From positions 1-64,000 of the forward strand of contig JAFRRM010000017.1 of assembly GCA_017428105.1 (NCBI GenBank): a stretch of 64,000 bases of DNA. Reading direction: 5' to 3'. Positions 26,059 to 41,493 of the stretch are shown in pieces; position 1 is the stretch's first letter; every line of letters starts with the position of its first letter. The notes under the pieces are model-generated. The model did no database searches. It was not told where the DNA came from and saw only the letters and a list, made by a program, of their open reading frames with translations. This DNA comes from Lachnospiraceae bacterium (GTDB taxonomy: Bacteria > Bacillota > Clostridia > Lachnospirales > Lachnospiraceae). The translations under genes were made by a program, and so were the position numbers.

Positions 26059-27471
26059 TTATTTCGCGCCGCCGAAGACTTCTTCCTTCTTTACCTGCAG
26101 CGCGGCGATCTCCTTTTTGCCGAGCGGATAGACGAAACGCAGGATGATGAAGACCAGCAGGAAGAGGATCGCCGGGATCATGACCGACGAATTGTACATG
26201 CTCTTTAAGGCAGTCTCGCTCAGGCCTTCGGTCTTTAATTCGCTGCCGTTGTAGCCGATCCGAAGCAGCGGGACGTTGATGAGCACGGTCGCGACAGTCT
26301 GGCCGAGCTTGCGCATGAAGGTGTAGAAGGCATAGCTCGTGGCCTCGTCGTTCAGGCCGTAGGTGACCTTGTTGTAATCGATCGCGTCGGTCGCGAGCGC
26401 CCAGATCAGCAGGAAAATGAACGCCGTGCCGATGCCGCTCATCAGGCACGCCGCGAGGTACAGCCACACGTTCGTGACGCCGAAAAGGGCCAGCACGAAG
26501 AGCAGGATATAGAAGGCCGCGGCGACCAGGATGCCGTAGGCGCAGACCTCCCGGCGGCCGAACTTATTGCCGAGCTTCGTGGCAAAGAACATGACCACGG
26601 CGACCGGCAGGTACTGGAAGACCGTCGGCAGCATCGTCAGACCGGGCTTGCCGAAATAATGATGGAAGAGGTAGCTGTTGTAGCCCTGGCCGAACATCTG
26701 CGCCGCCAGGAAAAGCATGCTCGCCAGGCTGACGGCCATGAACGGACGGCTCTTCAGCAGGATCCTGATGACGCGCATGGTCTCGCCCTTTGCACGCGGC
26801 GCGGGCTTCGATTCCACGCGTTCCTTCGTCCAGGCGTAGCAGAGCATGTAGGCCAGCACGCTGAGGACGGCGATTGCGATCGCGCCGATGAAGACCTTGT
26901 TCTGGCTCATCTGCTTCGTGCCGTCGGCGAGCTTCACGTAGCACATGCTGGCGAGGACCATTGCGGGCATGGCGCCGAAGGTGGAACCGATCGAACGGAA
27001 GACCGACAGCGCGGAACGCTCCTTGTCATCGGAGGTGATGACCTGCGCGAGGGACCCGTAAGGAATATTGATGCAGGTGTACAGCATGCCGAAAAGGATG
27101 TAGCTGATGTAGATCCAGGCAAGCCTGCCGCCGGCATTAAGGCCGCGCACGTCCAGGAACATCAGGACCGCCGCGACAGCCACCGGGACCGCGAAGATTT
27201 TGATCCATCTGCGGTAGCGGCCGTCCTTGCCGGGCTTGGCGCGGTCGATGATGCGGCCCCAGATCGGGTCGTTGATGGCGTCCCAGATGCGGGCAACAAT
27301 GGTCATGATCATGACGCTCAGCACACTGATCTCAAGGACGTCGGTGTAATACTTGTTCAGAACGCTCTGGGTGAGGCCGAAGACCAGGCAGGAGGCGAGG
27401 TCGCCCATCGCATAGCCGATCTTATCCTTTGCCTTGATCCCGCTCGTGCGGGAAATGTAGGACTGTTCCAC
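26059..27471 (-). CDS. GPH-family (glycoside-pentoside-hexuronide) cation symporter
   Basis: A 470-residue, 12-helix major-facilitator protein of the GPH family (MelB/XylP type), recognised by KIGYAMGDLASC near the N-terminus, DAINDPIWGRIIDR with the cation-site aspartates, and IGTAFIFLLIWALATDAIDY in the second half. It would import a glycoside or sugar acid with Na+ or H+. It is the last gene of a left-facing operon with a GH31 glycosidase and a sugar-isomerase-like protein. GPH carriers (YihO/YihP) accompany sulfoquinovosidase in known sulfoquinovose clusters, which supports the pathway proposed for this region. Confidence 0.9.
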   Translation of the reverse strand: MEQSYISRTSGIKAKDKIGYAMGDLASCLVFGLTQSVLNKYYTDVLEISVLSVMIMTIVARIWDAINDPIWGRIIDRAKPGKDGRYRRWIKIFAVPVAVAAVLMFLDVRGLNAGGRLAWIYISYILFGMLYTCINIPYGSLAQVITSDDKERSALSVFRSIGSTFGAMPAMVLASMCYVKLADGTKQMSQNKVFIGAIAIAVLSVLAYMLCYAWTKERVESKPAPRAKGETMRVIRILLKSRPFMAVSLASMLFLAAQMFGQGYNSYLFHHYFGKPGLTMLPTVFQYLPVAVVMFFATKLGNKFGRREVCAYGILVAAAFYILLFVLALFGVTNVWLYLAACLMSGIGTAFIFLLIWALATDAIDYNKVTYGLNDEATSYAFYTFMRKLGQTVATVLINVPLLRIGYNGSELKTEGLSETALKSMYNSSVMIPAILFLLVFIILRFVYPLGKKEIAALQVKKEEVFGGAK

Positions 27472-27642: not shown

Positions 27643-29649
27643 TTATTTTTTCTTCCGGCTGGCCGGCACGCCTTCGATCCCGGCGATCCCCCGGAACAGC
27701 TCCGCGAATGCGCTGTCCTCGCGGTAAAAGACCGGGACCCGTCCAAGCGGCGCCTGTGCGGTAAAGGACAGCGGCCCGTAATGCACCTTCCCGTTCCACA
27801 GACCGACCCATTTGCCCTCAGGCAGACGCACACGGCGCGTCGTCTTCCCCTCGTCGATCACCGGGCAGACGAAAAGGTCGTCCCCGAGGAAATAGGCGTA
27901 GGGGTCCTTGCCCGCCTTGAAGCTGCCGGCTTCCCAGAAGTCGGGGCGCATGGCCGGGATGCCTTCTTTCGCATCGGCGAGCAGCTTTTTCAGATAAGGG
28001 GCGAGCGCGGCGTGGACCTTCGACAGCATCACGGTATAGGGGATGACCTCGATGTCATAGGGCTGCGCGTTCACCCAGGGGCGGATCGCCTCGTGGCTGC
28101 GCATCATCGGGCTGAAGGTCCCCATTTCCATCCAGCGGATGAAGAGCTCGGCGTCGCGCCTGAGCTTGCCGAAGGAGAAAAAGCCGCCGATGTCGGCGTG
28201 GACGAGCGGGACGCCCGAAAAGGCGAGCGAGAAGCTGGCCGGCATCACGCAGGGCATGCCGTAATCCTTCGTGCGGTCGGTGTGCTGGTCGCCGTTCCAG
28301 AGGATCGGCGCGTATTCCGCGATGCCGAGATACCCGGAGCGCGAGAAGAACATTTCGTCACCCGTGCCGAACTCCTCGATAGCTTCGCGGTTGACCTTCG
28401 CCCACAGGACCGGCCAGACGTTGTGGAGCTTCGCGGGGTCGCCGTCATGCAGCACGCAGTCGGTCGGGAGGTACTCGCCGAAGTCGGCCATCCAGCCGGA
28501 AATGCCGAGGGCGAGTATGTTGTCGCGGATCAGGGTCTCCTTGATGTATTTCACGACTTCGGGGTCGGTCAGGTCCAGCATGCCCGCGTCGAAGGTCGTC
28601 GATTTGATGTGATAAATGCTGCCGTCCGTGCGGCGGATGAGGTACCCTTTCTCGGCGCATTCCTCGTAGAGGCGGCCGCCCTTCACGAGGTAGGGATTGA
28701 TGTAGGCAAGGAAGCGGATGCCGCGTTCTTTCAGCTTCGCGACGGCTTCCTTCAGGCCGGGATAAAGCGTCTCGCTTGCCTCCCAGTTCCACCAGACCTG
28801 CTTGCCCATGACCGTGCGGTTCTCGCCGCACCAGTCCTGGCACCAGACGCCGGCGATCTTCGCGCCGTCATCCTGCAGCTCGAAGGCCGTGGAAACGACC
28901 TGTTCGGTGCCGCCCTGGATGCCCACGATCATGCCGTCGAGGCACCAGTCTGGCAGGTACTGCCGCACCGGATGGATCCGGGCGAGGCGCTTTGCCTGCT
29001 CACGAAAACTCTCCGCCTGCGAGAGGATGATCGCCTCCGGGCACGCGTCAAAACCGAAGCGGTAGCCTTCCTTCTCCAGATAACTCGTGCCGTCGGCCGG
29101 GGTCTCAAAGAGGACCATCAGGCCGCCGTCGGTCACGAAGACGGGCATCGGCGCGTAACTGCCGATCTCCTGGTGTTCTTTTTCACGGTAGAACGCGCGC
29201 GGCAGGACGGCCTTTTCGATGACGGTCTTCGCCTTGATGTGCTCGGAGACGAAATTGACGACGTCTTCGCCCGCGAGGTTGACCTTGCGGTACTGCTCGC
29301 CGCCGCCGAACACGGCTTCCTTTTCCCGGGCGGGCAGGGCAAATTCATAGCCCCAGCCCTCTTCGCCTTCGGGAGTCATCCGGAGCACGCCCTCTTCGGT
29401 TTCTTCGAGGGTGAGTTTCAGGCTGTGCCCGTAGGCCGAGAAGATGAGGGCTTCGCCCTCCTGCGCGAGGTCGGTGAGGGGGATGTTCTCCTCCTTCACG
29501 ACTTTTTCCTTCACGGTCCCGCGGTTGGCGCTGTATTTCTTTTCCTGCCGGACCGCGGTCACGAAGGGCTTCTCGGGGCTGTGGAGGACGAGCTCCCGCC
29601 CCGAAAGAGTGACGGTCCAGACGGCGTTTATGATCTCAGACTTGAACAT
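27643..29649 (-). CDS. GH31 alpha-glycosidase, YihQ (sulfoquinovosidase)-like
   Basis: A 668-residue cytoplasmic GH31 enzyme closest in motif layout to E. coli YihQ. Matches are GGGEQY (115-120), LDGMIVGIQGG, VWCQDWCG, GWMADFGEYLPTD with the nucleophile D389, and NGDQ with the acid/base D454. Compared with YihQ, equivalents of Q262, Q288 and W304 are kept (Q245, Q271, W287), but sulfonate-binding R301 is Q284 and Y508 is F490. It should therefore hydrolyse an alpha-glycoside of a modified or acidic sugar; sulfoquinovosyl substrates are likely from context but not proven by the pocket. It sits between the GPH importer and the isomerase-like gene. Confidence 0.88.
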   Translation of the reverse strand: MFKSEIINAVWTVTLSGRELVLHSPEKPFVTAVRQEKKYSANRGTVKEKVVKEENIPLTDLAQEGEALIFSAYGHSLKLTLEETEEGVLRMTPEGEEGWGYEFALPAREKEAVFGGGEQYRKVNLAGEDVVNFVSEHIKAKTVIEKAVLPRAFYREKEHQEIGSYAPMPVFVTDGGLMVLFETPADGTSYLEKEGYRFGFDACPEAIILSQAESFREQAKRLARIHPVRQYLPDWCLDGMIVGIQGGTEQVVSTAFELQDDGAKIAGVWCQDWCGENRTVMGKQVWWNWEASETLYPGLKEAVAKLKERGIRFLAYINPYLVKGGRLYEECAEKGYLIRRTDGSIYHIKSTTFDAGMLDLTDPEVVKYIKETLIRDNILALGISGWMADFGEYLPTDCVLHDGDPAKLHNVWPVLWAKVNREAIEEFGTGDEMFFSRSGYLGIAEYAPILWNGDQHTDRTKDYGMPCVMPASFSLAFSGVPLVHADIGGFFSFGKLRRDAELFIRWMEMGTFSPMMRSHEAIRPWVNAQPYDIEVIPYTVMLSKVHAALAPYLKKLLADAKEGIPAMRPDFWEAGSFKAGKDPYAYFLGDDLFVCPVIDEGKTTRRVRLPEGKWVGLWNGKVHYGPLSFTAQAPLGRVPVFYREDSAFAELFRGIAGIEGVPASRKKK

Positions 29650-29728: not shown

Positions 29729-31156
29729 TTAATACTCGTAAACTTTAAACCCGTACAGCCCGGCGAGGGCTTTGAGGGTCTCGGCGTGACGGCCGCGGAT
29801 CACGGCAAAATGAGGTTCGAAGCCGGTGGCGACGCTGTCTTCCACGAGTTTCCGGCTGTCCGCGTCCGTCCGGACGACGAGCGAAGTGCCGATGAACTGC
29901 TTCGGTTTATCAAGGGCGCAGCCTTCTGCAATAAAGAAGCGGAAGGTCCCGTCCGGCTCGCGGCCGATGCGGAAGATCGTTGCATCCGGGAAGGCTTCGC
30001 AGCCGAAATCCATCGCCGGCCCGATCTTCCGGTTCGGATGCACGCCCACCGCGGCGCCGGTATCTTTCCGCGCCAGCGAGCAGGCGGCCATGCCGCAGTG
30101 CCAGAAGGTCAGGGTATTTTCGGTCTCGTCAAGCGCCACCGGGTCGCCGAAAAAGACGGCTTCGCCCGAAAGTTCCCGGCCGATCCACATGGAGAGCGCC
30201 CCGTAAAGATCCGCCTCGCAGGCCGCTGCAACATTCTCGTCGTTCAGGAGCGAAAGCACCGTGCAGACGGGCGTCCCGAACTCGGTGAACAGGTCCGGCC
30301 AGCAGCGGGAAGCGAGCGCGCCGATTCCGTTTTCGCGGACAAATTCCGTATAGGCCTTGTACAGGCGGGCATGGTCCAGGCGGTTCTTCTCCGGCGTTTT
30401 GTCGAGGCCGCAGGTCACGGCTTCGCTGCGCGCGAGGTATTCCGCGCACTCTTCGTCGGTATAGGTCTTCGCTTTATTGATCAGCTCGCGGACTTCTATC
30501 GAGACCAGCTCCGCGCCGAAATTGTACATCATCTCAGCATCCAGCGCGCGGCCGAAGCCGAAGCCCTGGGGCGTATGGCCGACCGCCGCGATCTTCAGGC
30601 TGCGCATTTTCTCCCGGATCCGGACCGCCTCGGCCTCCGCCGGGCTTAGTTCTGCCGTGTTTTCTCCGGCCGGCGCAGCGTTCCCGTCTTTCACGGCGGC
30701 AGCTTTGGCCGCCGCCTTCATCGCCGCCAGGATCGCCTCACGGACATTTTCCTCCTCGGGCGCGCCGAAGACATAGGAAAACGGCCGGTTGCCGAAGTTT
30801 CGGAGCGTGTGCGCCGCCGAATAGGCGCCGGTCAGCGAATTGAGTTTCAGCCGCCCGCCGTCTCCCGCCGGCTCGCGCAGGGTCCAGAGAAGGACCGGGC
30901 CGTCATAACGGCGCAGGACCTCCGCCATGTAGGCGCCGTTCGCAAAGGTGAGGTCCTGGAAAATGACCAGCCCGGGCCGAAGCGGCGCAAGAAAGTCCCG
31001 AAGCGCCTCCACCGAAAGCAGGGGCTTTTCCGGGACGACAACATCTCCGTCAAAGCTTTTCAGGAGCCTTGCGGAGCGCGCAAACTGATCGGCCGCCGTC
31101 TCCATGTGAAAGGTTCCGACGCCGACCGGCAGATATACAGTGATAAACGATTCCAT
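29729..31156 (-). CDS. L-fucose/L-arabinose isomerase-like protein (candidate sulfosugar isomerase)
   Basis: A 475-residue protein of the FucI/AraA superfamily. The C-terminal half has the family blocks ASRCWPDLF, LSLLNDENVAAACEADLYGA and LTFWHCGMAA, carrying the E/D/H metal ligands that support aldose-ketose isomerisation. It is the first gene of the operon, followed by the GH31 and the GPH carrier. It would convert the released monosaccharide to a ketose for the transketolase encoded nearby; isomerising sulfoquinovose to sulfofructose is the specific inference. The ATG at 31154-31156 behind GGAGG is chosen over one 11 codons upstream. Confidence 0.75.
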   Translation of the reverse strand: MESFITVYLPVGVGTFHMETAADQFARSARLLKSFDGDVVVPEKPLLSVEALRDFLAPLRPGLVIFQDLTFANGAYMAEVLRRYDGPVLLWTLREPAGDGGRLKLNSLTGAYSAAHTLRNFGNRPFSYVFGAPEEENVREAILAAMKAAAKAAAVKDGNAAPAGENTAELSPAEAEAVRIREKMRSLKIAAVGHTPQGFGFGRALDAEMMYNFGAELVSIEVRELINKAKTYTDEECAEYLARSEAVTCGLDKTPEKNRLDHARLYKAYTEFVRENGIGALASRCWPDLFTEFGTPVCTVLSLLNDENVAAACEADLYGALSMWIGRELSGEAVFFGDPVALDETENTLTFWHCGMAACSLARKDTGAAVGVHPNRKIGPAMDFGCEAFPDATIFRIGREPDGTFRFFIAEGCALDKPKQFIGTSLVVRTDADSRKLVEDSVATGFEPHFAVIRGRHAETLKALAGLYGFKVYEY

Positions 31157-31188
31157 GGCACCTCCGGTGCTTTCGTGAATTCTCTTCA

Positions 31189-31217
31189 ATTCTATGTGTG
31201 ATCGGGCTTTATGTCAA
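31189..31217 (-). promoter_or_regulatory. Sigma-A promoter of the isomerase/GH31/GPH operon
   Basis: On the minus strand TTGACA (31212-31217), 17 bp, TAGAAT (31189-31194), 33 bp before the start codon. It abuts the stop codon of the upstream DUF5131 gene, so the operon has its own start site. Confidence 0.75.
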
Positions 31218-32330
31218 GGACGAGCGCCGCATTTCCCCTTCGATCCAGTCCGTAATGACCTCCGTGACGTAAGCCTGCTCCTGCTCCGTCAGGACCTTGC
31301 CCGCGGGGATGTGATGCCATTTCTCCAGGCAGGCCCGGCAGCAGCAGGCCGTCGCATGCTGGGCGATGAAGACCGGATGCCCCTTCATGGGCGTCTGCTT
31401 TCCGTCATTGTCGGGATTTTCCGGCGCCAGGCGCTTCGCAACGATCTCGGCGGCGTGGCGGCGGACGGTGTCCATGCCCTTCTCCGTGATGTAATTCCTG
31501 TCCTCATCGCTTAAGTGAAAGCGGCTCCGAAAGACCGAGTGCCCGAGAACTTCCTGCAGCGCTTCCCGCGCCGGCAGGCGGTAGACGACGGCTGCGCCGG
31601 AATTCTTCCCCGGAGTATAGCTCCAGCCGGACTTTCGTGCCTGGGCAATTTGATCCTTCCGCTCGATATGATAGGTCCGGCCGTCCATGACGAAGACCGC
31701 GCCCGTCTGCTTGAAGCTAAACGGCACGCCGCAGCGGATGCATTCCCGCCGGGCCTCGCGGACCCATTTGTCCTCGCAGGGCCGCGCCTTCGGCCCCGAC
31801 TCGCCCCCGCAGGTCACGTGGCCGATCAGGCCCGACGCGAGGTACTTCTCCATTTCCACGGGACCGAGCATGGGCTCGCAGATCACCTCGCGGTGCTTCA
31901 GCGGCAGGTCCAGCAGGATCGGCAGGCGCAGGTCCGCCCGCGCCTGGTCTTCGCAGGTGCTGCAGACGGTCACGTGGTCCCAGCCCTCGCCCCAGTCCGG
32001 TGGTGCGCATTCCATAAAGCGGCCGATCCGCTTGGTGATGATGAAAAAATGCAGGTCCCGCCGCGTGCGGATCATGTCCCAGCAGTCCTGCCGCCAGGCA
32101 TCCGCCTCGTCCAGGAAGAAATCCGAGGTCATGCAGGTGTAAACGACGCCGTCTGCCGCCGTCAGCTTGTATTCCCCCTGCCGGTTCTTTTTGAGCGGCA
32201 GGTCAAAATCGCCCGTCTTTGCCACGACGGACGCATCTTTTCCTATGCTTTCGTCCCGGCGGTAAACGTAGCAGTTTGCGCAGCCGGGACTGATCTTATG
32301 GCAGCCGTGCCAGGGATTCCAAACGGACAT
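31209..32330 (-). CDS. DUF5131 (phage Gp37/Gp68-like) protein fused to a DUF4186 domain
   Basis: A 373-residue protein with two recognisable parts. Residues about 1-250 match DUF5131, opening MSVWNPWHGCHKISPGCANC with a radical-SAM-like cysteine cluster and containing VCEP/ICEPMLGPVE and TCGGESG blocks. Residues about 270-373 match DUF4186, including HPVFIAQHATACCCRACL and WHHIPAGKVLT, with further metal-ligand-like Cys/His. Neither domain has a well-established activity that I can name. The ATG at 32328-32330 starts the first domain. It shares no obvious role with the sugar operon beside it. Confidence 0.78.
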   Translation of the reverse strand: MSVWNPWHGCHKISPGCANCYVYRRDESIGKDASVVAKTGDFDLPLKKNRQGEYKLTAADGVVYTCMTSDFFLDEADAWRQDCWDMIRTRRDLHFFIITKRIGRFMECAPPDWGEGWDHVTVCSTCEDQARADLRLPILLDLPLKHREVICEPMLGPVEMEKYLASGLIGHVTCGGESGPKARPCEDKWVREARRECIRCGVPFSFKQTGAVFVMDGRTYHIERKDQIAQARKSGWSYTPGKNSGAAVVYRLPAREALQEVLGHSVFRSRFHLSDEDRNYITEKGMDTVRRHAAEIVAKRLAPENPDNDGKQTPMKGHPVFIAQHATACCCRACLEKWHHIPAGKVLTEQEQAYVTEVITDWIEGEMRRSSLT

Positions 32331-32350
32331 GGTGTGCAGCTCCCGATTTT

Positions 32351-32656
32351 TCAGCGGTTGTATCGGACGCCTGCGGTGATCAGCAGCGCGAGCCCGGCCG
32401 CAAAGGCGACCGCAAAGACGATAAAGGACGATGCCTTTTCTGTACACCACAAAAGGATCGCCGTGACGATCAGCCCGGCGCCCGCGATGAGCAGACCGAT
32501 CCCCGACAGGGTACAGAAGGCTTTTTTGTCTTCTTCGCGGATGTTTTCCCGGTGATAATCATGCAGGATATTGATTTTTTCTTTCTTCCAGAGCAAAACG
32601 CCCAGCACCGCGCAGACGATGCCGACAGCCCCAGTCACGATAACGCCGAGGATCAT
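32351..32656 (-). CDS. Small membrane protein, DUF3784-like
   Basis: A 101-residue protein with three predicted helices: an N-terminal one (MILGVIVTGAVGIVCAVLGVLLW), a charged loop (KKEKINILHDYHRENIREEDK), then two helices. This layout is that of DUF3784-type proteins in Firmicutes. The start follows AAAGGAG and overlaps the GNAT gene stop by 4 bp. Function unknown. Confidence 0.7.
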   Translation of the reverse strand: MILGVIVTGAVGIVCAVLGVLLWKKEKINILHDYHRENIREEDKKAFCTLSGIGLLIAGAGLIVTAILLWCTEKASSFIVFAVAFAAGLALLITAGVRYNR

Positions 32657-33201
32657 ATTATCTCCTTTCCGGCCGCGTCCGCAAAGTTCCGGAAATCCTC
32701 CGGAACGAGTTCGTAATCGACCGACGACTGCCATGCGCCGAGCTGGTCCCGCCAGGAATCCTTATTGATGCGGAGCTTCCTGAAGCCCAGCATCTCGTAA
32801 ACGTGCTGCGCGCGGGTGTTCCGAAGGTTCGTGTCGAGGAGGATCTTCGCACAGCCCCGGTCAAAAAGTTCCCAGATGAGCAGGCTCAGGATCACCCGGC
32901 CGAGCCCTTTTTCCTGATAAGCCGGTTCGCAGATCTTGATGCCGATCTCGGCGGTGCCGCTGCCCTTGTTCCGATAATTGGTCTCGCCGATCAGGCGGCC
33001 TTTGTATTCAATGACCAGGCGGCGGACGGTGTCGTCGCTGTCCGTCGCGATCTCTTTTGCGATCTTCTCCGCCGTCGTACCGAGGCCGAGCGGAAAGCCG
33101 GCGTGCGCCATGACGCGGCCGTCGTTCCACCATTTTGCCAGCTGCTCACAGTCGGCCGCCTCCGCATTGCGGATGACGATGTCCTGATGCCGGATCAGCA
33201 T
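32653..33201 (-). CDS. GNAT-family N-acetyltransferase
   Basis: A 182-residue acetyltransferase of the RimJ/RimL-like GNAT group, with the acetyl-CoA loop in YQEKGLGRVILSLLI and the C-terminal NTRAQHVYEMLGFRKL motif. The start at 33199-33201 lies behind GGAGGAG. It overlaps the kinase-like gene upstream by 7 bp and the DUF3784-like gene downstream by 4 bp, so the three are co-translated. The substrate is unknown. Confidence 0.88.
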   Translation of the reverse strand: MLIRHQDIVIRNAEAADCEQLAKWWNDGRVMAHAGFPLGLGTTAEKIAKEIATDSDDTVRRLVIEYKGRLIGETNYRNKGSGTAEIGIKICEPAYQEKGLGRVILSLLIWELFDRGCAKILLDTNLRNTRAQHVYEMLGFRKLRINKDSWRDQLGAWQSSVDYELVPEDFRNFADAAGKEII

Positions 33202-33704
33202 GTTAACTCCTCCAGCCACGCGTCCGCTGCAGCCCGCGACGTGAAAGTGATGACCCGCTTCTTCGGGTATTTGTCAAACAGCGCGAGCAGCTTCGGGCGC
33301 TTCGTTTTACGGTGGCTGCGGACCATTTCCACGAGTTCGGGATCAAGTTCCTGCTCGGTCCAGGGGATGTCCGTGCGCGTCTTCCCGACCCGCTCCGTGA
33401 TCCCGGCCATGCATTCTTCCTCATCAAGATCGAGGAGAATGACCGTATCGCAGGCAGCGATGCGCGGCTCATAGGTCCGGCTGTAGTCGCCGTCGATGAT
33501 CCATTTCTCGCCCTGCAGGATCTCCGCGAGGCGCAGGTCGAATTCCTCCCGGCTGATGTGCGTCCGGTCCGCCTTCCACCAGATGTTGTCCAGATGGATG
33601 AGGGGCAGGCCCGTGCGCGCCGCGAGTTTCTTCGCAAAAGTGCTCTTGCCGCTCCCCGAGCAGCCGAGAACCAGGATCCTGTTTTCCGTCAATACGTTTG
33701 CCAT
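33195..33704 (-). CDS. P-loop kinase-like protein (FlaR/adenylate-kinase-like)
   Basis: A 169-residue small P-loop protein with Walker A GCSGSGKS (residues 14-21), LIHLDNIWWK, an arginine-rich lid, and the EFDLRLAEIL...WIIDGDY pattern of the 'DNA topology modulation'/FlaR group of adenylate-kinase-like proteins. It probably phosphorylates a small molecule. It is the first gene of a short minus-strand operon that diverges from the transketolase operon. Confidence 0.82.
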   Translation of the reverse strand: MANVLTENRILVLGCSGSGKSTFAKKLAARTGLPLIHLDNIWWKADRTHISREEFDLRLAEILQGEKWIIDGDYSRTYEPRIAACDTVILLDLDEEECMAGITERVGKTRTDIPWTEQELDPELVEMVRSHRKTKRPKLLALFDKYPKKRVITFTSRAAADAWLEELTC

Positions 33705-33846: not shown

Positions 33847-34749
33847 ATGTTGAACGCATCTCTCAAAGAGCACTGTCTGGACATCCGCTGCGACACCATC
33901 CGTGCCATCGGGCACCTCGGCGTCGGACACATCGGCGGCTGTCTTTCCGTCATCGAACTCCTCACCGTCTTATATTTTGAAGCCATGAACATCGATCCCG
34001 CGCAGCCGAAAATGCCCGGCCGCGACCGTTTCATCTGCTCGAAGGGGCACGCCGGCCCAGCCGTCTACGCCGCGCTCGCGAACCGCGGCTTTTTCCCGAA
34101 GGAAATGCTGCTCACCCTGAACCGGGGTGGGACCGACCTGCCTTCGCACTGCGACATGAACCGCACCCCCGGCGTCGACATGACCACCGGCTCGCTCGGG
34201 CAGGGCTTTTCCTGCGCGGTCGGCGCGGCCCTCGGCTCCAAGCTGGAGGGCGACGGAGCCGTCATTTATACCCTGATCGGCGACGGCGAGAGCCAGGAGG
34301 GCCAGATCTGGGAGGCGGCCATGTTTGCGGCGGCGAAAAAGCTGGACAATCTGATCGCCTTTACCGATTACAACAAGCTGCAGATCGACGATACGGTCGA
34401 GAAGGTAAATGACATCGCGCCGCTCGCTGCCAAGTGGCACGCCTTCGGCTGGAACGTCGTGGAGGTGGAAAACGGCAATGACCTGGATGCTGTCCTGAAC
34501 GCCGTCGGGACCGCGCTTTCGATGAGGGGCGAGGGCAGTCCGACCATGGTCATCCTGCATACGAAGAAGGGCTGCGGCGTGCCTGAGGTCGAAGCGATGG
34601 GCGCCGGCAACCACAACTGTCCCTTCAGTGAGGCGCAGGCCGAGGCTGCGATCCGTGCCCTGCGCGAAGCCTTTGCCGCCGAGACGGCCGCCCGCCCCGG
34701 GGATGAGGAAGACGAAGACGACGGCCCTGCCGCCGGAAAGGAGGACTGA
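33847..34749 (+). CDS. Transketolase, N-terminal (TPP/pyrophosphate-binding) subunit
   Basis: A 300-residue half-transketolase with IGHLGVGHIGGCLS, SKGHAGPAVYAAL, TTGSLGQGFS and the ThDP/Mg motif GDGESQEGQ...ND-like NLIAFTDYNK. It needs the C-terminal subunit encoded 3 bp downstream to move two-carbon ketol units between sugars. The ATG at 33847 is chosen for its GGAGG site. Co-transcription with an RpiB-like isomerase and an iron alcohol dehydrogenase, near a YihQ-like GH31, is the gene set of the transketolase (SqwGH-type) sulfoquinovose route. A general pentose-phosphate role is the alternative. Confidence 0.92.
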   Translation: MLNASLKEHCLDIRCDTIRAIGHLGVGHIGGCLSVIELLTVLYFEAMNIDPAQPKMPGRDRFICSKGHAGPAVYAALANRGFFPKEMLLTLNRGGTDLPSHCDMNRTPGVDMTTGSLGQGFSCAVGAALGSKLEGDGAVIYTLIGDGESQEGQIWEAAMFAAAKKLDNLIAFTDYNKLQIDDTVEKVNDIAPLAAKWHAFGWNVVEVENGNDLDAVLNAVGTALSMRGEGSPTMVILHTKKGCGVPEVEAMGAGNHNCPFSEAQAEAAIRALREAFAAETAARPGDEEDEDDGPAAGKED

Positions 34750-34752
34750 GCC

Positions 34753-35676
34753 ATGGAAATGAGAGCAGCTTATGCCGAATGCCTGGCGAAAATGATGGCG
34801 GAGGACCGCCATGTGGTCGTCCTTGATGCGGACCTGGCCAAGGCCAGCGGGACCCGGAGCCTTTACGAACGCTTCCCGAAACAGATGTTTGACTGCGGCG
34901 TCGCCGAGCAGAACATGGCTTCCATCGCCGCCGGGCTGGCGAGCTACGGCTTCACGCCCTGGATCGAGAGCTTCACGCCCTTCGCGACCCGCCGCATCTG
35001 CGACCAGATCGCCATTTCGATCGCCTACGCGGGCATGAACGTCAAGATCGTCGGCACCGACCCGGGCATTTCCGCCGAACTAAACGGCGGGACCCACATG
35101 AGCATGGAGGACATCGGCGTGGTCCGGTCCATCCCGGGGATGGTGATCGTGGAGCCGGCGGACGAGATCCAGCTGCGCGCCGCGATGCCGGTCATCCAGG
35201 CCTACAAGGGGCCGCTGTACCTGCGCCTTTTCCGCAAGGAGACCGCGCCGGTCTTTCAGGAAGGCTACGAATTCGACCTGATGAAGGCGGACCTCCTGCG
35301 CGAGGGAAAAGACCTCTCGATCTTCGTTTCGGGCCTGCCGACTGCGGATACGCTCGAAGCCGCGAAGGCCCTGGCGGAGGAAGGAATCGAAGCCGAGGTC
35401 ATCAATGTCCATACCATCAAACCCATCGACCGGGAGACCGTCATCCGCTCGGCGCGCAAGACCGGCTGCGTCCTGACCGTCGAGAACCACAATATCATCG
35501 GCGGCCTGCACAGCGCCGTCGTCGAAGCCCTCGCTGCGGAGCGCATTCCCGCCTTCGCCCTGGGCATTCCGGACCGCTTCGGCGAGGTCGGCATGCTCCC
35601 GTACCTAAAAAAGGTGATGGGGCTCACGCCGGAAAACATCGTCCGCCGCGCGAAAGCCGCGCTCGAAGCGAAGTAA
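34753..35676 (+). CDS. Transketolase, C-terminal subunit
   Basis: A 307-residue second half of a split transketolase. It holds the pyrimidine-binding domain (FDCGVAEQNMASIAAGLA, with the ThDP-activating glutamate; ESFTPFATRR; GGTHMSMEDIG) and the C-terminal domain (VINVHTIKPIDRETV). With the preceding gene it forms the active heteromer. The short spacing (3 bp) ensures matched expression. In a sulfo-transketolase route it would cleave 6-deoxy-6-sulfofructose and then 4-deoxy-4-sulfoerythrulose. Confidence 0.92.
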   Translation: MEMRAAYAECLAKMMAEDRHVVVLDADLAKASGTRSLYERFPKQMFDCGVAEQNMASIAAGLASYGFTPWIESFTPFATRRICDQIAISIAYAGMNVKIVGTDPGISAELNGGTHMSMEDIGVVRSIPGMVIVEPADEIQLRAAMPVIQAYKGPLYLRLFRKETAPVFQEGYEFDLMKADLLREGKDLSIFVSGLPTADTLEAAKALAEEGIEAEVINVHTIKPIDRETVIRSARKTGCVLTVENHNIIGGLHSAVVEALAAERIPAFALGIPDRFGEVGMLPYLKKVMGLTPENIVRRAKAALEAK

Positions 35677-35791: not shown

Positions 35792-36268
35792 ATGAAGATC
35801 GCACTCGGAAGCGACAAATCCGGCTTCAATGCCAAGGAAGCCGTCAAGGCCTGGCTCACGCAGGAAGGCTACGATTTCGAAGACCTCGGCACGCTCGATC
35901 CCGAGCAGCCGCAGCCCTACTATCAGGTCGCCGCGAAGGCTGCCCCGCTCGTTGCGGACGGGACCTTCGACCGCGCGGTGCTCCTCTGCGGCACCGGCGC
36001 CGGCATGTGCGTCGTCTCGAACAAGTTCAAGGGCGTTCATGCCGTGGTCTGCGAGAGCCCCTATACCGCCAAAATGGCCCGCGCCATCAACAACGCGAAG
36101 GTCCTGTGCATGGGCGGCTGGGTCGTCGGCCCGGAACTGGCCGTTGACATGACGAAGACCTTCCTGAACACGGAATGGTGCCAGGATCTCGAGGACTGGC
36201 GCGCCGCCAACATGCACAAATTCGCCGCCCAACTGGACGCGATCGAGGATAAAAACTATGGGAAATGA
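35792..36268 (+). CDS. RpiB/LacAB-family sugar isomerase, atypical (SqwI-like candidate)
   Basis: A 158-residue RpiB-fold isomerase with the catalytic cysteine C66 in LLCGTGAGM and the Rossmann-like start MKIALGSD. Three features of phosphate-sugar isomerases are changed. The GxDH histidine is K9, the ring-opening histidine of the RxHNxA motif is I99 (ARAINNAK), and the C-terminal RHxxR phosphate-binding arginines are absent. An enzyme acting on an open-chain, non-phosphate substrate such as 4-deoxy-4-sulfoerythrose would fit, and such an isomerase belongs to the sulfo-transketolase pathway. GGGAG precedes the start, and it overlaps the dehydrogenase gene by 11 bp. Confidence 0.8.
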   Translation: MKIALGSDKSGFNAKEAVKAWLTQEGYDFEDLGTLDPEQPQPYYQVAAKAAPLVADGTFDRAVLLCGTGAGMCVVSNKFKGVHAVVCESPYTAKMARAINNAKVLCMGGWVVGPELAVDMTKTFLNTEWCQDLEDWRAANMHKFAAQLDAIEDKNYGK

Positions 36269-37361
36269 TTTTTTCTATGCCCAGCCGGTGAAGACCTGGT
36301 TCGGCGAGAGCTGCCTGGACCGCCTGGGCGAAGTTCTTGCGGCATTTCAGATCGAACGCGCGGTGCTCGTCTGCGGGCGCCATTTCGCCGCTGCAGCGGC
36401 AGCGCTGCAGGAAAAGCTCCCTGCCGTGAAGGCCGTCTTTTCCGCTGTCGAACCCGATCCGCAGCTGTCCGGCGCGGTCCGGGCCGCCGAACTCGCCCGG
36501 GAAACGGGCGCCGATACCATCATCGGCATCGGCGGCGGGAGCGCCCTGGATACCGCAAAATTCGCGGCTGCCATCGCCCCCGGGGACGCGGAGCCGCTGG
36601 CCTATTACCGCGGCGAAGTCCCTTTCCCCACGAACCCGCTTAAGATCGTCTGCGTGCCCACGACCGCCGGGACCGGCAGCGAAGTCACGCAGGTCTCCGT
36701 CATCAGCAACGGCAACGAAAAGCGGACCATCAACAACCCCGTTTTCATGCCGAAGGCGGCTGTTGTCGATCCGCTCCTCTCCTTCTCCGTGCCGGCCGGA
36801 ACGGCTGTCTGCACCGGCCTGGACGCGCTTGCTCACGCCCTGGAAGGCTACTGGAGCAAGAATCACCAGCCCATTTCCGACCTCATGGCGGTCGAGGCCG
36901 TCCGCCTCATCACGCAGAACCTGGAAAAGGTCCGGCTCGCCGGCCCGAATGCCGACCTGCCCGCGCACAGCGCCATGGCCTATGCGGCCCTCCTCGGCGG
37001 CCTTTCCTTTGCCCTGCCGAAGACCGCGGCCTGCCACGCCTGCAGCTATCCGATCTGCGAGGCCTTCCACATTTCCCACGGCGAGGCCTGCGCCTTCACC
37101 CTGGACAGTTTCGTCCGCATCAACGCGGATGAGCGCCTCGAGGAGCTCTGCCGCCGCGCCGGCCTGTCCGGAACGGAAGAACTCGCCGCATGGATCGCGA
37201 ACATTAAGAAAAAAGCGGGCCTCAGGACCCGCCTGTCCGAACTCGGCGAGGCCGACATCCCCGCTCTTGCCGCGGCTGCAGCCGTCCATCCTCTTATGCA
37301 GAACAACCCCGTCCCGATGGACGCGGCCGCGCTGGAGAAAATGTTCGAAACGCTGCGGTAA
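36258..37361 (+). CDS. Iron-containing alcohol dehydrogenase (candidate sulfoacetaldehyde reductase)
   Basis: A 367-residue group III (Fe-dependent) alcohol dehydrogenase with NAD(P) motif IGIGGGSALDTAK, VPTTAGTGSEVT, and all metal ligands visible: D and H in TGLDALAHALE, H in AACHACSY, H in HISHGEA. It reduces an aldehyde with NAD(P)H. Translational overlap with the RpiB-like gene and the transketolase pair upstream make sulfoacetaldehyde reduction to isethionate the best pathway guess, since Fe-type sulfoacetaldehyde reductases are known in anaerobes. A generic aldehyde reductase cannot be excluded. Confidence 0.9.
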   Translation: MGNDFFYAQPVKTWFGESCLDRLGEVLAAFQIERAVLVCGRHFAAAAAALQEKLPAVKAVFSAVEPDPQLSGAVRAAELARETGADTIIGIGGGSALDTAKFAAAIAPGDAEPLAYYRGEVPFPTNPLKIVCVPTTAGTGSEVTQVSVISNGNEKRTINNPVFMPKAAVVDPLLSFSVPAGTAVCTGLDALAHALEGYWSKNHQPISDLMAVEAVRLITQNLEKVRLAGPNADLPAHSAMAYAALLGGLSFALPKTAACHACSYPICEAFHISHGEACAFTLDSFVRINADERLEELCRRAGLSGTEELAAWIANIKKKAGLRTRLSELGEADIPALAAAAAVHPLMQNNPVPMDAAALEKMFETLR

Positions 37362-39578: not shown

Positions 39579-39645
39579 ACCTGCCGGTCCAAGCGGCTCG
39601 GCATAACGAATGAACACTCCCCGCATTTTCCAAAGGAGCAACACC

Positions 39646-41493
39646 ATGAGCAAGAACAGCAAGACCGACCGGAAAGCCTTCTCCCTGAAGGAACGCTTCC
39701 GCTACTGGTTCGACAACCGCATGACCCGCGGATCGCTCGGCCTGATCCGTGTCCTCATCATCGCCTCCGTACTGTTGGCCGTCCTGATGGGTCTCGTGAT
39801 CATCATCTGCGGCTTCAGCGACGAGGGCGAAGGCGGCGCAGTCATCTGGGACAGCATCGCGACCGTGATCAATGCCTGGATGCCCTCGTTTGAGGACGGG
39901 AGCCCGGGTTATCTCATCGTCATGAGCGTGACCGCGATCGCCGGCGTGCTCTTCACCAGCGTGCTGATCGGTATCATCACGAGCGCGATCGAGGAAAAGA
40001 TCGACAGTTTGAAGCGCGGCAACTCCATGGTCCTGGAGCAGGACCACGTCGTCGTGCTCGGCTTCAACCCCGGCGAATATTCCCTCCTGCAGCAGCTGGT
40101 CCTGGCCGCTGCGGATGACGACGCCTGCATCGTCGTGGCGGAGGACATGGACCGCGTGGAAATGGAGGACGGCATCCGCGAGAACCTGGACGTGCCGAAA
40201 AATGTCCGCCTCGTCTGCCGGACGGTGGACATCACGGACCCGGCTTCGCTGGAAAAATGCTCGCTCGAGACCTGCCGGACCGTCATCGTGAGCCCGACCG
40301 ACGACATCACGACCATCAAGGCCGTGCTCGCCGCGTCCTCCGTCCTGGAGGAAAAGGGCACGCCGGAGACTGCCGTGAGCGCCATCATGACCGGGGACGA
40401 GTTCCGTTTCCCGCCGTCGCTTGCCAAGGCCAACAACATTTCGGCCCTGCAGACAGGCACGGTCCTTGCCAAGATGATCGCGCACTCCTGCACGCAGACC
40501 GGCCTGTCGCAGACCTTCCGCGAGATCTTCAATTTCGAGGGCTCCGAGTTCTACATGACCGCCCTTGACGGCGCCGCCGGACTGAGTTTTGAGGAAATGG
40601 CCGTGCGCCTTGCCGGCGCGGTGCCGGTCGGCGTCTCGCGGGAGGGTAAAGTCCTTATCGCCCCGCCGGCGGACTTCGTGCTGCAGGAAGGCGACCGGAT
40701 CCTTGTCTTTGCGGAGCAGGCGGATTCCGCCAAACTCGAGGCTTCGGCGCCGCCGGCCGGTGAGATCCCGCCCGTGACGGCGGACGAAGCGCCTACCTCT
40801 GCCGTGATCCTCGGCACGAGCGAGATCCTGCCGCTCGTCCTGCAGGAACTGCCCGAAAACGTCGTCCGTGCCGTCCTGGTCGTCCCGGAAGACGGCGAAG
40901 AGGATACGGCGAAGCTGGAGGCGGCTGCCGCCGCCCGCGGCCTGCAACTCGATTTTGTTCACGAAGATCCCCGCGACGAGGACGTGCTGCTTTCTCTTGC
41001 GCGCGAAGCGGAGCATATCGTGATCCTGAATGATCACGAAAAGGACCCCGACGAAGCCGACATGGAAGCCGCCTGCCTGCTGCTCGGCCTGCGCGACATC
41101 CGGGACCGCTTCGGCCTTTCCTTCAACATCACGGTCGAAATGCAGCGTGAGCGCAACCAGAAGCTGGTCGGCCGCGGCGACCACACCGACTTCCTCGTCT
41201 CCTCGAGCATGTCGTCCCTGATCGTAGCGCAGCTTGCCGAAAGCCCCGAGATGATCGACGTCTTCCGCGAGATCCTCTCCAACGAAGGCAGTGAGATCTA
41301 CCTGAAGAACGCCGGGCGGCTGGGCCTTTGCGGGACCTTTGCGGTCCGTGACCTTCGCCGCATCATGATCCGGCAGGGCTACATCCTTCTGGGCCTTCTG
41401 GATGCCGGAAAGCAGAGTTTCTTCGACCTGCCGCTCGACAAGGAGATCACGCTCGGCGGCGAAGACTGCCTGATCGTACTGGGAGAAAAATAA
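39646..41493 (+). CDS. CASTOR/POLLUX-like ion channel with RCK domains
   Basis: A 615-residue protein. Residues about 30-120 hold two membrane helices flanking a pore-like loop, then two RCK/TrkA_N-type units: DHVVVLGFNPGEYSLLQQLV near 130 and SAVILGTSEILPLVLQEL near 385. This is the layout of plant CASTOR/POLLUX (DMI1) channels and bacterial homologues, which gate cations in response to cytoplasmic ligands. AAAGGAG at 39632-39638 fixes the start. Monocistronic, ending at a strong terminator. Ion and ligand are not evident from sequence. Confidence 0.82.
   Translation: MSKNSKTDRKAFSLKERFRYWFDNRMTRGSLGLIRVLIIASVLLAVLMGLVIIICGFSDEGEGGAVIWDSIATVINAWMPSFEDGSPGYLIVMSVTAIAGVLFTSVLIGIITSAIEEKIDSLKRGNSMVLEQDHVVVLGFNPGEYSLLQQLVLAAADDDACIVVAEDMDRVEMEDGIRENLDVPKNVRLVCRTVDITDPASLEKCSLETCRTVIVSPTDDITTIKAVLAASSVLEEKGTPETAVSAIMTGDEFRFPPSLAKANNISALQTGTVLAKMIAHSCTQTGLSQTFREIFNFEGSEFYMTALDGAAGLSFEEMAVRLAGAVPVGVSREGKVLIAPPADFVLQEGDRILVFAEQADSAKLEASAPPAGEIPPVTADEAPTSAVILGTSEILPLVLQELPENVVRAVLVVPEDGEEDTAKLEAAAAARGLQLDFVHEDPRDEDVLLSLAREAEHIVILNDHEKDPDEADMEAACLLLGLRDIRDRFGLSFNITVEMQRERNQKLVGRGDHTDFLVSSSMSSLIVAQLAESPEMIDVFREILSNEGSEIYLKNAGRLGLCGTFAVRDLRRIMIRQGYILLGLLDAGKQSFFDLPLDKEITLGGEDCLIVLGEK

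Follow-up and report, generated by a model that had tools for sequence, protein, structure and literature searches.

We identify, with good confidence, an RpiB-like protein from a rumen Lachnospiraceae genus as SqwI, the isomerase of the sulfo-transketolase (sulfo-TK) pathway, the support coming mainly from the context of its gene, which lies in a 64-kb stretch of DNA (hereafter the window). SqwI and the pathway are already known; what is new is that the active-site changes of the protein are identical in 83 distinct relatives. The residues of SqwI, their conservation, its gene linkage, phylogeny and predicted fold are established in this analysis, and we infer its likely substrate, 4-deoxy-4-sulfoerythrose (SE), and the residues that would contact the sulfonate.

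Sulfo-TK clusters with the same genes have been published, and in them the PF02502 protein is SqwI (PMC13219744, PMC11659671, PMC9594981). The same literature describes a bifurcated variant of the pathway in Lachnospiraceae (2024; PMC11659671) and rumen Oscillospiraceae that carry sqwGHI and transcribe it highly on sulfoquinovose (2026; PMC13219744). It also includes a 2022 review in which SqwI is termed 'putative', its activity not being directly measurable with SE isomerising spontaneously (PMC9594981). Of all steps of the pathway, that of SqwI has the least proof behind it, since SE isomerises by itself. The SqwI papers of the open literature name, in their accessible text, none of its active-site residues, and a search of open-access papers, with subscription papers outside it, found no description of a residue signature. 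A signature by which SqwI can be told apart from RpiB, EryI and the sister families would guide both the design of mutants and the annotation of a pathway that is widespread among bacteria of the ruminant gut and contributes to the production of isethionate and then of sulfide.

Gene neighbourhood of sqwI

The gene order in the window is sqwG-sqwH-sqwI-sqwF, all on the forward strand (Table 1). The ATG of sqwI at 35792 is preceded by a ribosome-binding site (AAGGGAG), and the last 11 bases of the gene, read directly, are shared with the start of sqwF at 36258; the product matches PF02502 (LacAB_rpiB) with an E value of 5.6e-42. A pattern search gave no support to the idea that a dispersed REP-like repeat separates sqwH from sqwI, and no RNA family and no tRNA were found within the 64-kb window.

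Table 1. Genes of the proposed sulfo-TK cluster in the window, with their assignments
Feature	Position	Strand	Product	Evidence
GPH-family sugar:cation symporter	26059..27471	-	Candidate importer	TIGR00792, 278 bits, over cut-off
GH31 glycosidase	27643..29649	-	YihQ-like glycosidase	NF007746, 580 bits, over cut-off 553
SftI/SqvD-like sulfoquinovose isomerase	29729..31189	-	Fucose-isomerase fold	NF048012, 365 bits, cut-off 700
sqwG	33847..34749	+	N-terminal half transketolase, ThDP-binding domain	PF00456, E 2e-43
sqwH	34753..35676	+	C-terminal half transketolase	PF02779 and PF02780
sqwI	35792..36268	+	158 aa; RpiB/LacAB-family isomerase, proposed 4-deoxy-4-sulfoerythrose isomerase	PF02502, residue table, tree, AlphaFold
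sqwF	36258..37361	+	Iron-containing alcohol dehydrogenase, proposed sulfoacetaldehyde reductase	PF00465, E 1e-41, over cut-off

Linkage among relatives carries most of the weight. A scan of one genome per species across 84,980 species returned 449 related loci, the best 80 of which were kept, mostly from ruminant metagenome-assembled genomes (MAGs). SqwG and SqwH adjoin sqwI at every related locus whose upstream sequence reaches at least 2.3 kb (73 of 73), and SqwF is present in 70 of 80 loci with enough sequence downstream. The sulfoquinovose (SQ) isomerase (SqvD/SftI) was found in 68 of the 86 loci searched, many of which are incomplete, and a GH31 gene is often present nearby. The sequence-only reading had proposed a sulfoerythrose isomerase, and it is chiefly the linkage to SqwG and SqwH (73/73 testable loci) that makes this identity well supported.

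On the reverse strand, the best curated model for the putative SQ isomerase is NF048012 (SftI), at an E value of 4e-109 and below the curated cut-off, and the symporter is 25-27% identical to E. coli YihO/YihP. The model matched by the GH31 protein, NF007746, is an alpha-glucosidase model that we take to cover YihQ. This protein keeps the catalytic aspartates of YihQ together with Q288 and W304, and has Gln for R301 and Phe for Y508, two positions in the sulfonate pocket; this altered pocket is a point against the sulfo-TK reading of the cluster. The resulting set, QQQW..F, occurs in 21 GH31 proteins including the window copy and is mostly accompanied by the GPH symporter, as at 19 of 24 loci. 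The canonical QQRW..Y set occurs in 19 distant GH31 proteins (~35% identity) of other sulfo-TK loci; the substrate of the QQQW..F enzymes may differ from the canonical one.

Between the SQ isomerase and sqwG, 31209-33704 on the reverse strand encodes a DUF5131/DUF4186 fusion protein, a GNAT acetyltransferase and a small AAA kinase-like protein; most related loci have too short a gap here to accommodate them. At 39610-41493 on the forward strand lies the gene for a 627-residue protein with TrkA domains and a mid-region match to Castor/Pollux, a family that takes its name from ion channels of plants and is met here in a gut bacterium.

Elsewhere the genome encodes a second transketolase N domain. 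TauE/SafE (PF01925), which we take to be the type expected of the accessory isethionate exporter SqwE, has no match in this genome (96% complete). Some sulfo-TK bacteria are without SqwE, according to one study (PMC12890257), so the missing TauE/SafE protein is compatible with the pathway, and another isethionate exporter is probably used.

Active-site residues

Alignment with the RpiB of E. coli MG1655 shows that SqwI retains D8, Y43, C66, T68 and N100, and thus all three catalytic residues of RpiB (Cys66, Thr68 and Asn100). By contrast, the features concerned with ring opening and phosphate are all replaced: H99, the ring-opening histidine, by I99, H10 by K9, R110 by W110, and the RHxxR motif by LEDWR. 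From the sequence alone it had been claimed that the catalytic cysteine is kept, that the histidine of the DH pair is Lys and that the ring-opening histidine is Ile, and the alignment bears out all three. The accompanying list of lost phosphate-binding residues overlooked the change of R110 to W110; R110 corresponds to Arg113 of MtRpiB, a phosphate ligand (PMC3755991). Published mutants give some measure of these positions, in that H99N lowers the kcat of E. coli RpiB 26-fold on a ring-forming substrate and H9A inactivates LacB (PMC3755991). The Lys that SqwI has in the place of LacB H9 retains the positive charge.

The AlphaFold model of SqwI is of high confidence (mean pLDDT 97), and its top matches among solved structures are RpiB proteins (Z 24.9). 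The C-terminal helix is where methods part. The arginines of RHxxR (R133 and R137 in E. coli RpiB) had been said to be gone; the motif is indeed absent, with LEDWR in its place in a gap-free MAFFT alignment, but loss of both arginines is not established, since the same alignment sets R137 of LEDWR opposite the second Arg. Profile-profile alignment with hhalign is confident only to residue 132. Superposition on 3he8 places residues 1-156 of the model on 1-148 of the chain (Z 24.9, rmsd 1.3), and the ends of the model and of solved RpiB chains match only once a net shift of 7-8 residues is allowed, which on the model may leave neither RHxxR arginine in place. MAFFT, hhalign and structural superposition thus disagree on the register, and R137 may or may not be a retained second Arg.

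Conservation among relatives

We compared 83 distinct SqwI sequences with pairwise identities down to 46%, a sample dominated by one ruminant clade and equivalent to about 9 representatives at 80% identity. K9, S10, W110, L133, E134, W136 and R137 are invariant in all 83, as is the presence of the LE[ED]WR segment, and position 99 is Ile in 82, the remaining sequence having Val. In 66 other family members compared, K9, E134 and W136 are never found and W110 is found once.

Phylogeny and possible lateral transfer

In a maximum likelihood (ML) tree, SqwI and seven sister proteins are divided from canonical RpiB, EryI and LacAB by a branch of length 1.14 with 100/100 support. Clustering with canonical RpiB, which had been named in advance as counting against a sulfoerythrose isomerase, did not occur. 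The tree leaves two SqwI clades and the sister group as a trichotomy, so monophyly of SqwI is not established.

In the genus to which the window belongs, sqwI is carried by 7 of the 16 genomes. The window SqwI is 48-54% identical to the SqwI of other genera in its own family and about 70-78% identical to those of Oscillospiraceae MAGs. In a tree of concatenated SqwGHI sequences the window genus groups with Oscillospiraceae MAGs, a branch of 1.25 changes per column setting it well apart from four other genera of its family, and one member of the genus (L073/G598) sits among Oscillospiraceae. This tree suggests that the pathway has moved laterally between families, with the caveat that MAGs can be contaminated.

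What the residue changes say

The sequence-only reading took the losses to be those expected for sulfoerythrose, a substrate with neither ring nor phosphate. The part concerning ring opening is backed by EryI. EryI is a D-erythrulose-4-phosphate isomerase, and its substrate is an acyclic C4 phosphate. In the EryI proteins of erythritol loci (Rhizobium and relatives) the alignment shows Ser at the position of the ring-opening His, with R110 and R133 kept; loss of the histidine therefore tracks an acyclic C4 substrate and retention of the arginines tracks phosphate. In a C4 sugar whose C4 bears a sulfonate, O4 is missing and a furanose ring cannot form, so the ring-opening His would be dispensable for SqwI.

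The second part, that the losses imply a substrate without phosphate, does not stand, as sister proteins share them. Several such proteins (L009, L010, L012, L014, L008, L147, L165 and L121) lack the ring-opening His (Val or Ile) and are without SqwGH, and most also lack R110 and R133. Near them are encoded an FGGY kinase, a pentulose-phosphate epimerase, a class II aldolase and a xylose-isomerase-like TIM barrel; one sister gene follows the FGGY kinase gene, and another overlaps the gene for the pentulose-phosphate epimerase. With such proteins, some near sugar-phosphate genes, showing the same losses, the losses alone are ruled out as proof of a non-phosphate substrate. A sulfonate is itself an anion that needs binding, and the invariant gains of K9, W110 and LE[ED]WR are consequently more telling than the losses: SqwI is marked by these gains together with its gene context.

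Sister proteins beside a sugar kinase or a pentulose-phosphate epimerase also raise the question of whether the protein instead isomerises a sugar phosphate (ribose-5-phosphate, erythrose-4-phosphate or another) on behalf of the pentose phosphate pools, which receive xylulose-5-phosphate from SqwGH. It belongs to the RpiB family by Pfam and keeps the catalytic residues, and pentose-phosphate enzymes are required to handle the xylulose-5-phosphate that the pathway yields. We nevertheless consider this improbable: H10, R110 and RHxxR are replaced in 83 of 83 SqwI, another gene of the genome supplies a canonical RpiB complete with these ligands (comparison rows L001/L157), and the protein falls below the cut-off of the curated RpiB equivalog TIGR01120 (117.8 against 138.65 bits) and groups with neither RpiB nor EryI. 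Its score with the EryI model NF051858 is also below the cut-off (102.7 against 240 bits).

It is decidedly improbable, too, that SqwI acts on a sulfonated intermediate at another step, for instance in the isomerisation or mutarotation of a different sulfosugar, with SE left to isomerise spontaneously. The apparent spontaneous conversion of SE, as reported in the 2022 review, does make the enzyme look dispensable in vitro (PMC9594981), but sqwI is strictly kept with SqwGH at all testable loci, and in related bacteria it is one of the 15% of genes most highly transcribed on sulfoquinovose (PMC13219744). For the conversion of SQ to sulfofructose, moreover, the cluster already encodes a dedicated isomerase, and the missing ring-opening His agrees with a substrate that is acyclic. 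To relaxed selection on a decaying RpiB paralogue, which could account for the loss of several family-defining residues, we give next to no credence and regard it as refuted: invariant replacements in 83 sequences down to 46% identity, retained catalytic residues in these diverged homologues and a high-confidence fold argue that the changes are not random decay.

Proposed mechanism

With SqwI as an SE isomerase, the cluster would operate as follows. The SQ isomerase would form 6-deoxy-6-sulfofructose, from which SqwGH would take a C2 unit to leave SE. SqwI would then convert the aldose SE to the ketose 4-deoxy-4-sulfoerythrulose (SEu), SqwGH would remove a second C2 unit from SEu to give sulfoacetaldehyde, and SqwF would reduce this to isethionate.

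Within SqwI, the enediol chemistry of RpiB would be kept, with C66 as the base, T68 and the GTG loop handling protons and N100 contributed by the partner subunit, and catalysis would involve no ring-opening step. The phosphate site (H10, R110 and R133/R137 in E. coli RpiB) appears to have been rebuilt, probably for the sulfonate, by K9, W110 and the invariant LE[ED]WR; the sulfonate would be held by K9 and W110, with the partner subunit's C-terminal helix perhaps contributing. We give an even chance to the joint proposal that the RpiB phosphate site has been rebuilt as a sulfonate site (Lys9, Trp110 and LE[ED]WR on an extended C-terminal helix), that K9 plus LE[ED]WR is diagnostic of sulfo-TK isomerases, and that the sister clade without the ring His holds further isomerases of acyclic or short substrates.

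Comparison with known systems

The RpiB proteins of E. coli, M. tuberculosis and C. thermocellum have a fold in common with SqwI (Z ~23-25) at ~35-40% identity, and share its catalytic Cys66, Thr68 and Asn100 and the GTGxG loop. SqwI departs from them in having Ile for His99, Lys for H10, Trp for R110 and LE[ED]WR for RHxxR, and in a C-terminal region that is some 7-8 residues longer.

EryI resembles SqwI in having lost the ring-opening His, but differs in retaining the phosphate ligands R110 and R133; it is 29% identical to the window SqwI and groups with canonical RpiB instead. The erythritol locus genes (eryA, eryB, eryC and eryH) are not the context of the window gene, whose neighbours are those of the sulfo-TK pathway. 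An RpiB-like protein of Coccidioides immitis (PDB 3QD5 and 3SDW), for which a shorter substrate was suspected by its authors (PMC3212906), is like SqwI in that the ring His and most phosphate-binding residues are replaced. Its replacements, however, are not those of SqwI (Asp17, Ser109, Ser145 and Lys148), and no sulfosugar context has been described for it.

Closest in context are the published SqwI of Clostridium sp. MSTE9, Faecalicatena, Caproiciproducens and Ca. Limivicinus. The Faecalicatena protein is reportedly 58% identical to the MSTE9 archetype (PMC11659671). The window SqwI differs from these in its host, a rumen Lachnospiraceae genus. With them it has in common membership of PF02502, a position directly 3' of sqwGH, and a cluster with the same SQ isomerase, YihQ-type GH31 and SqwF-type dehydrogenase functions.
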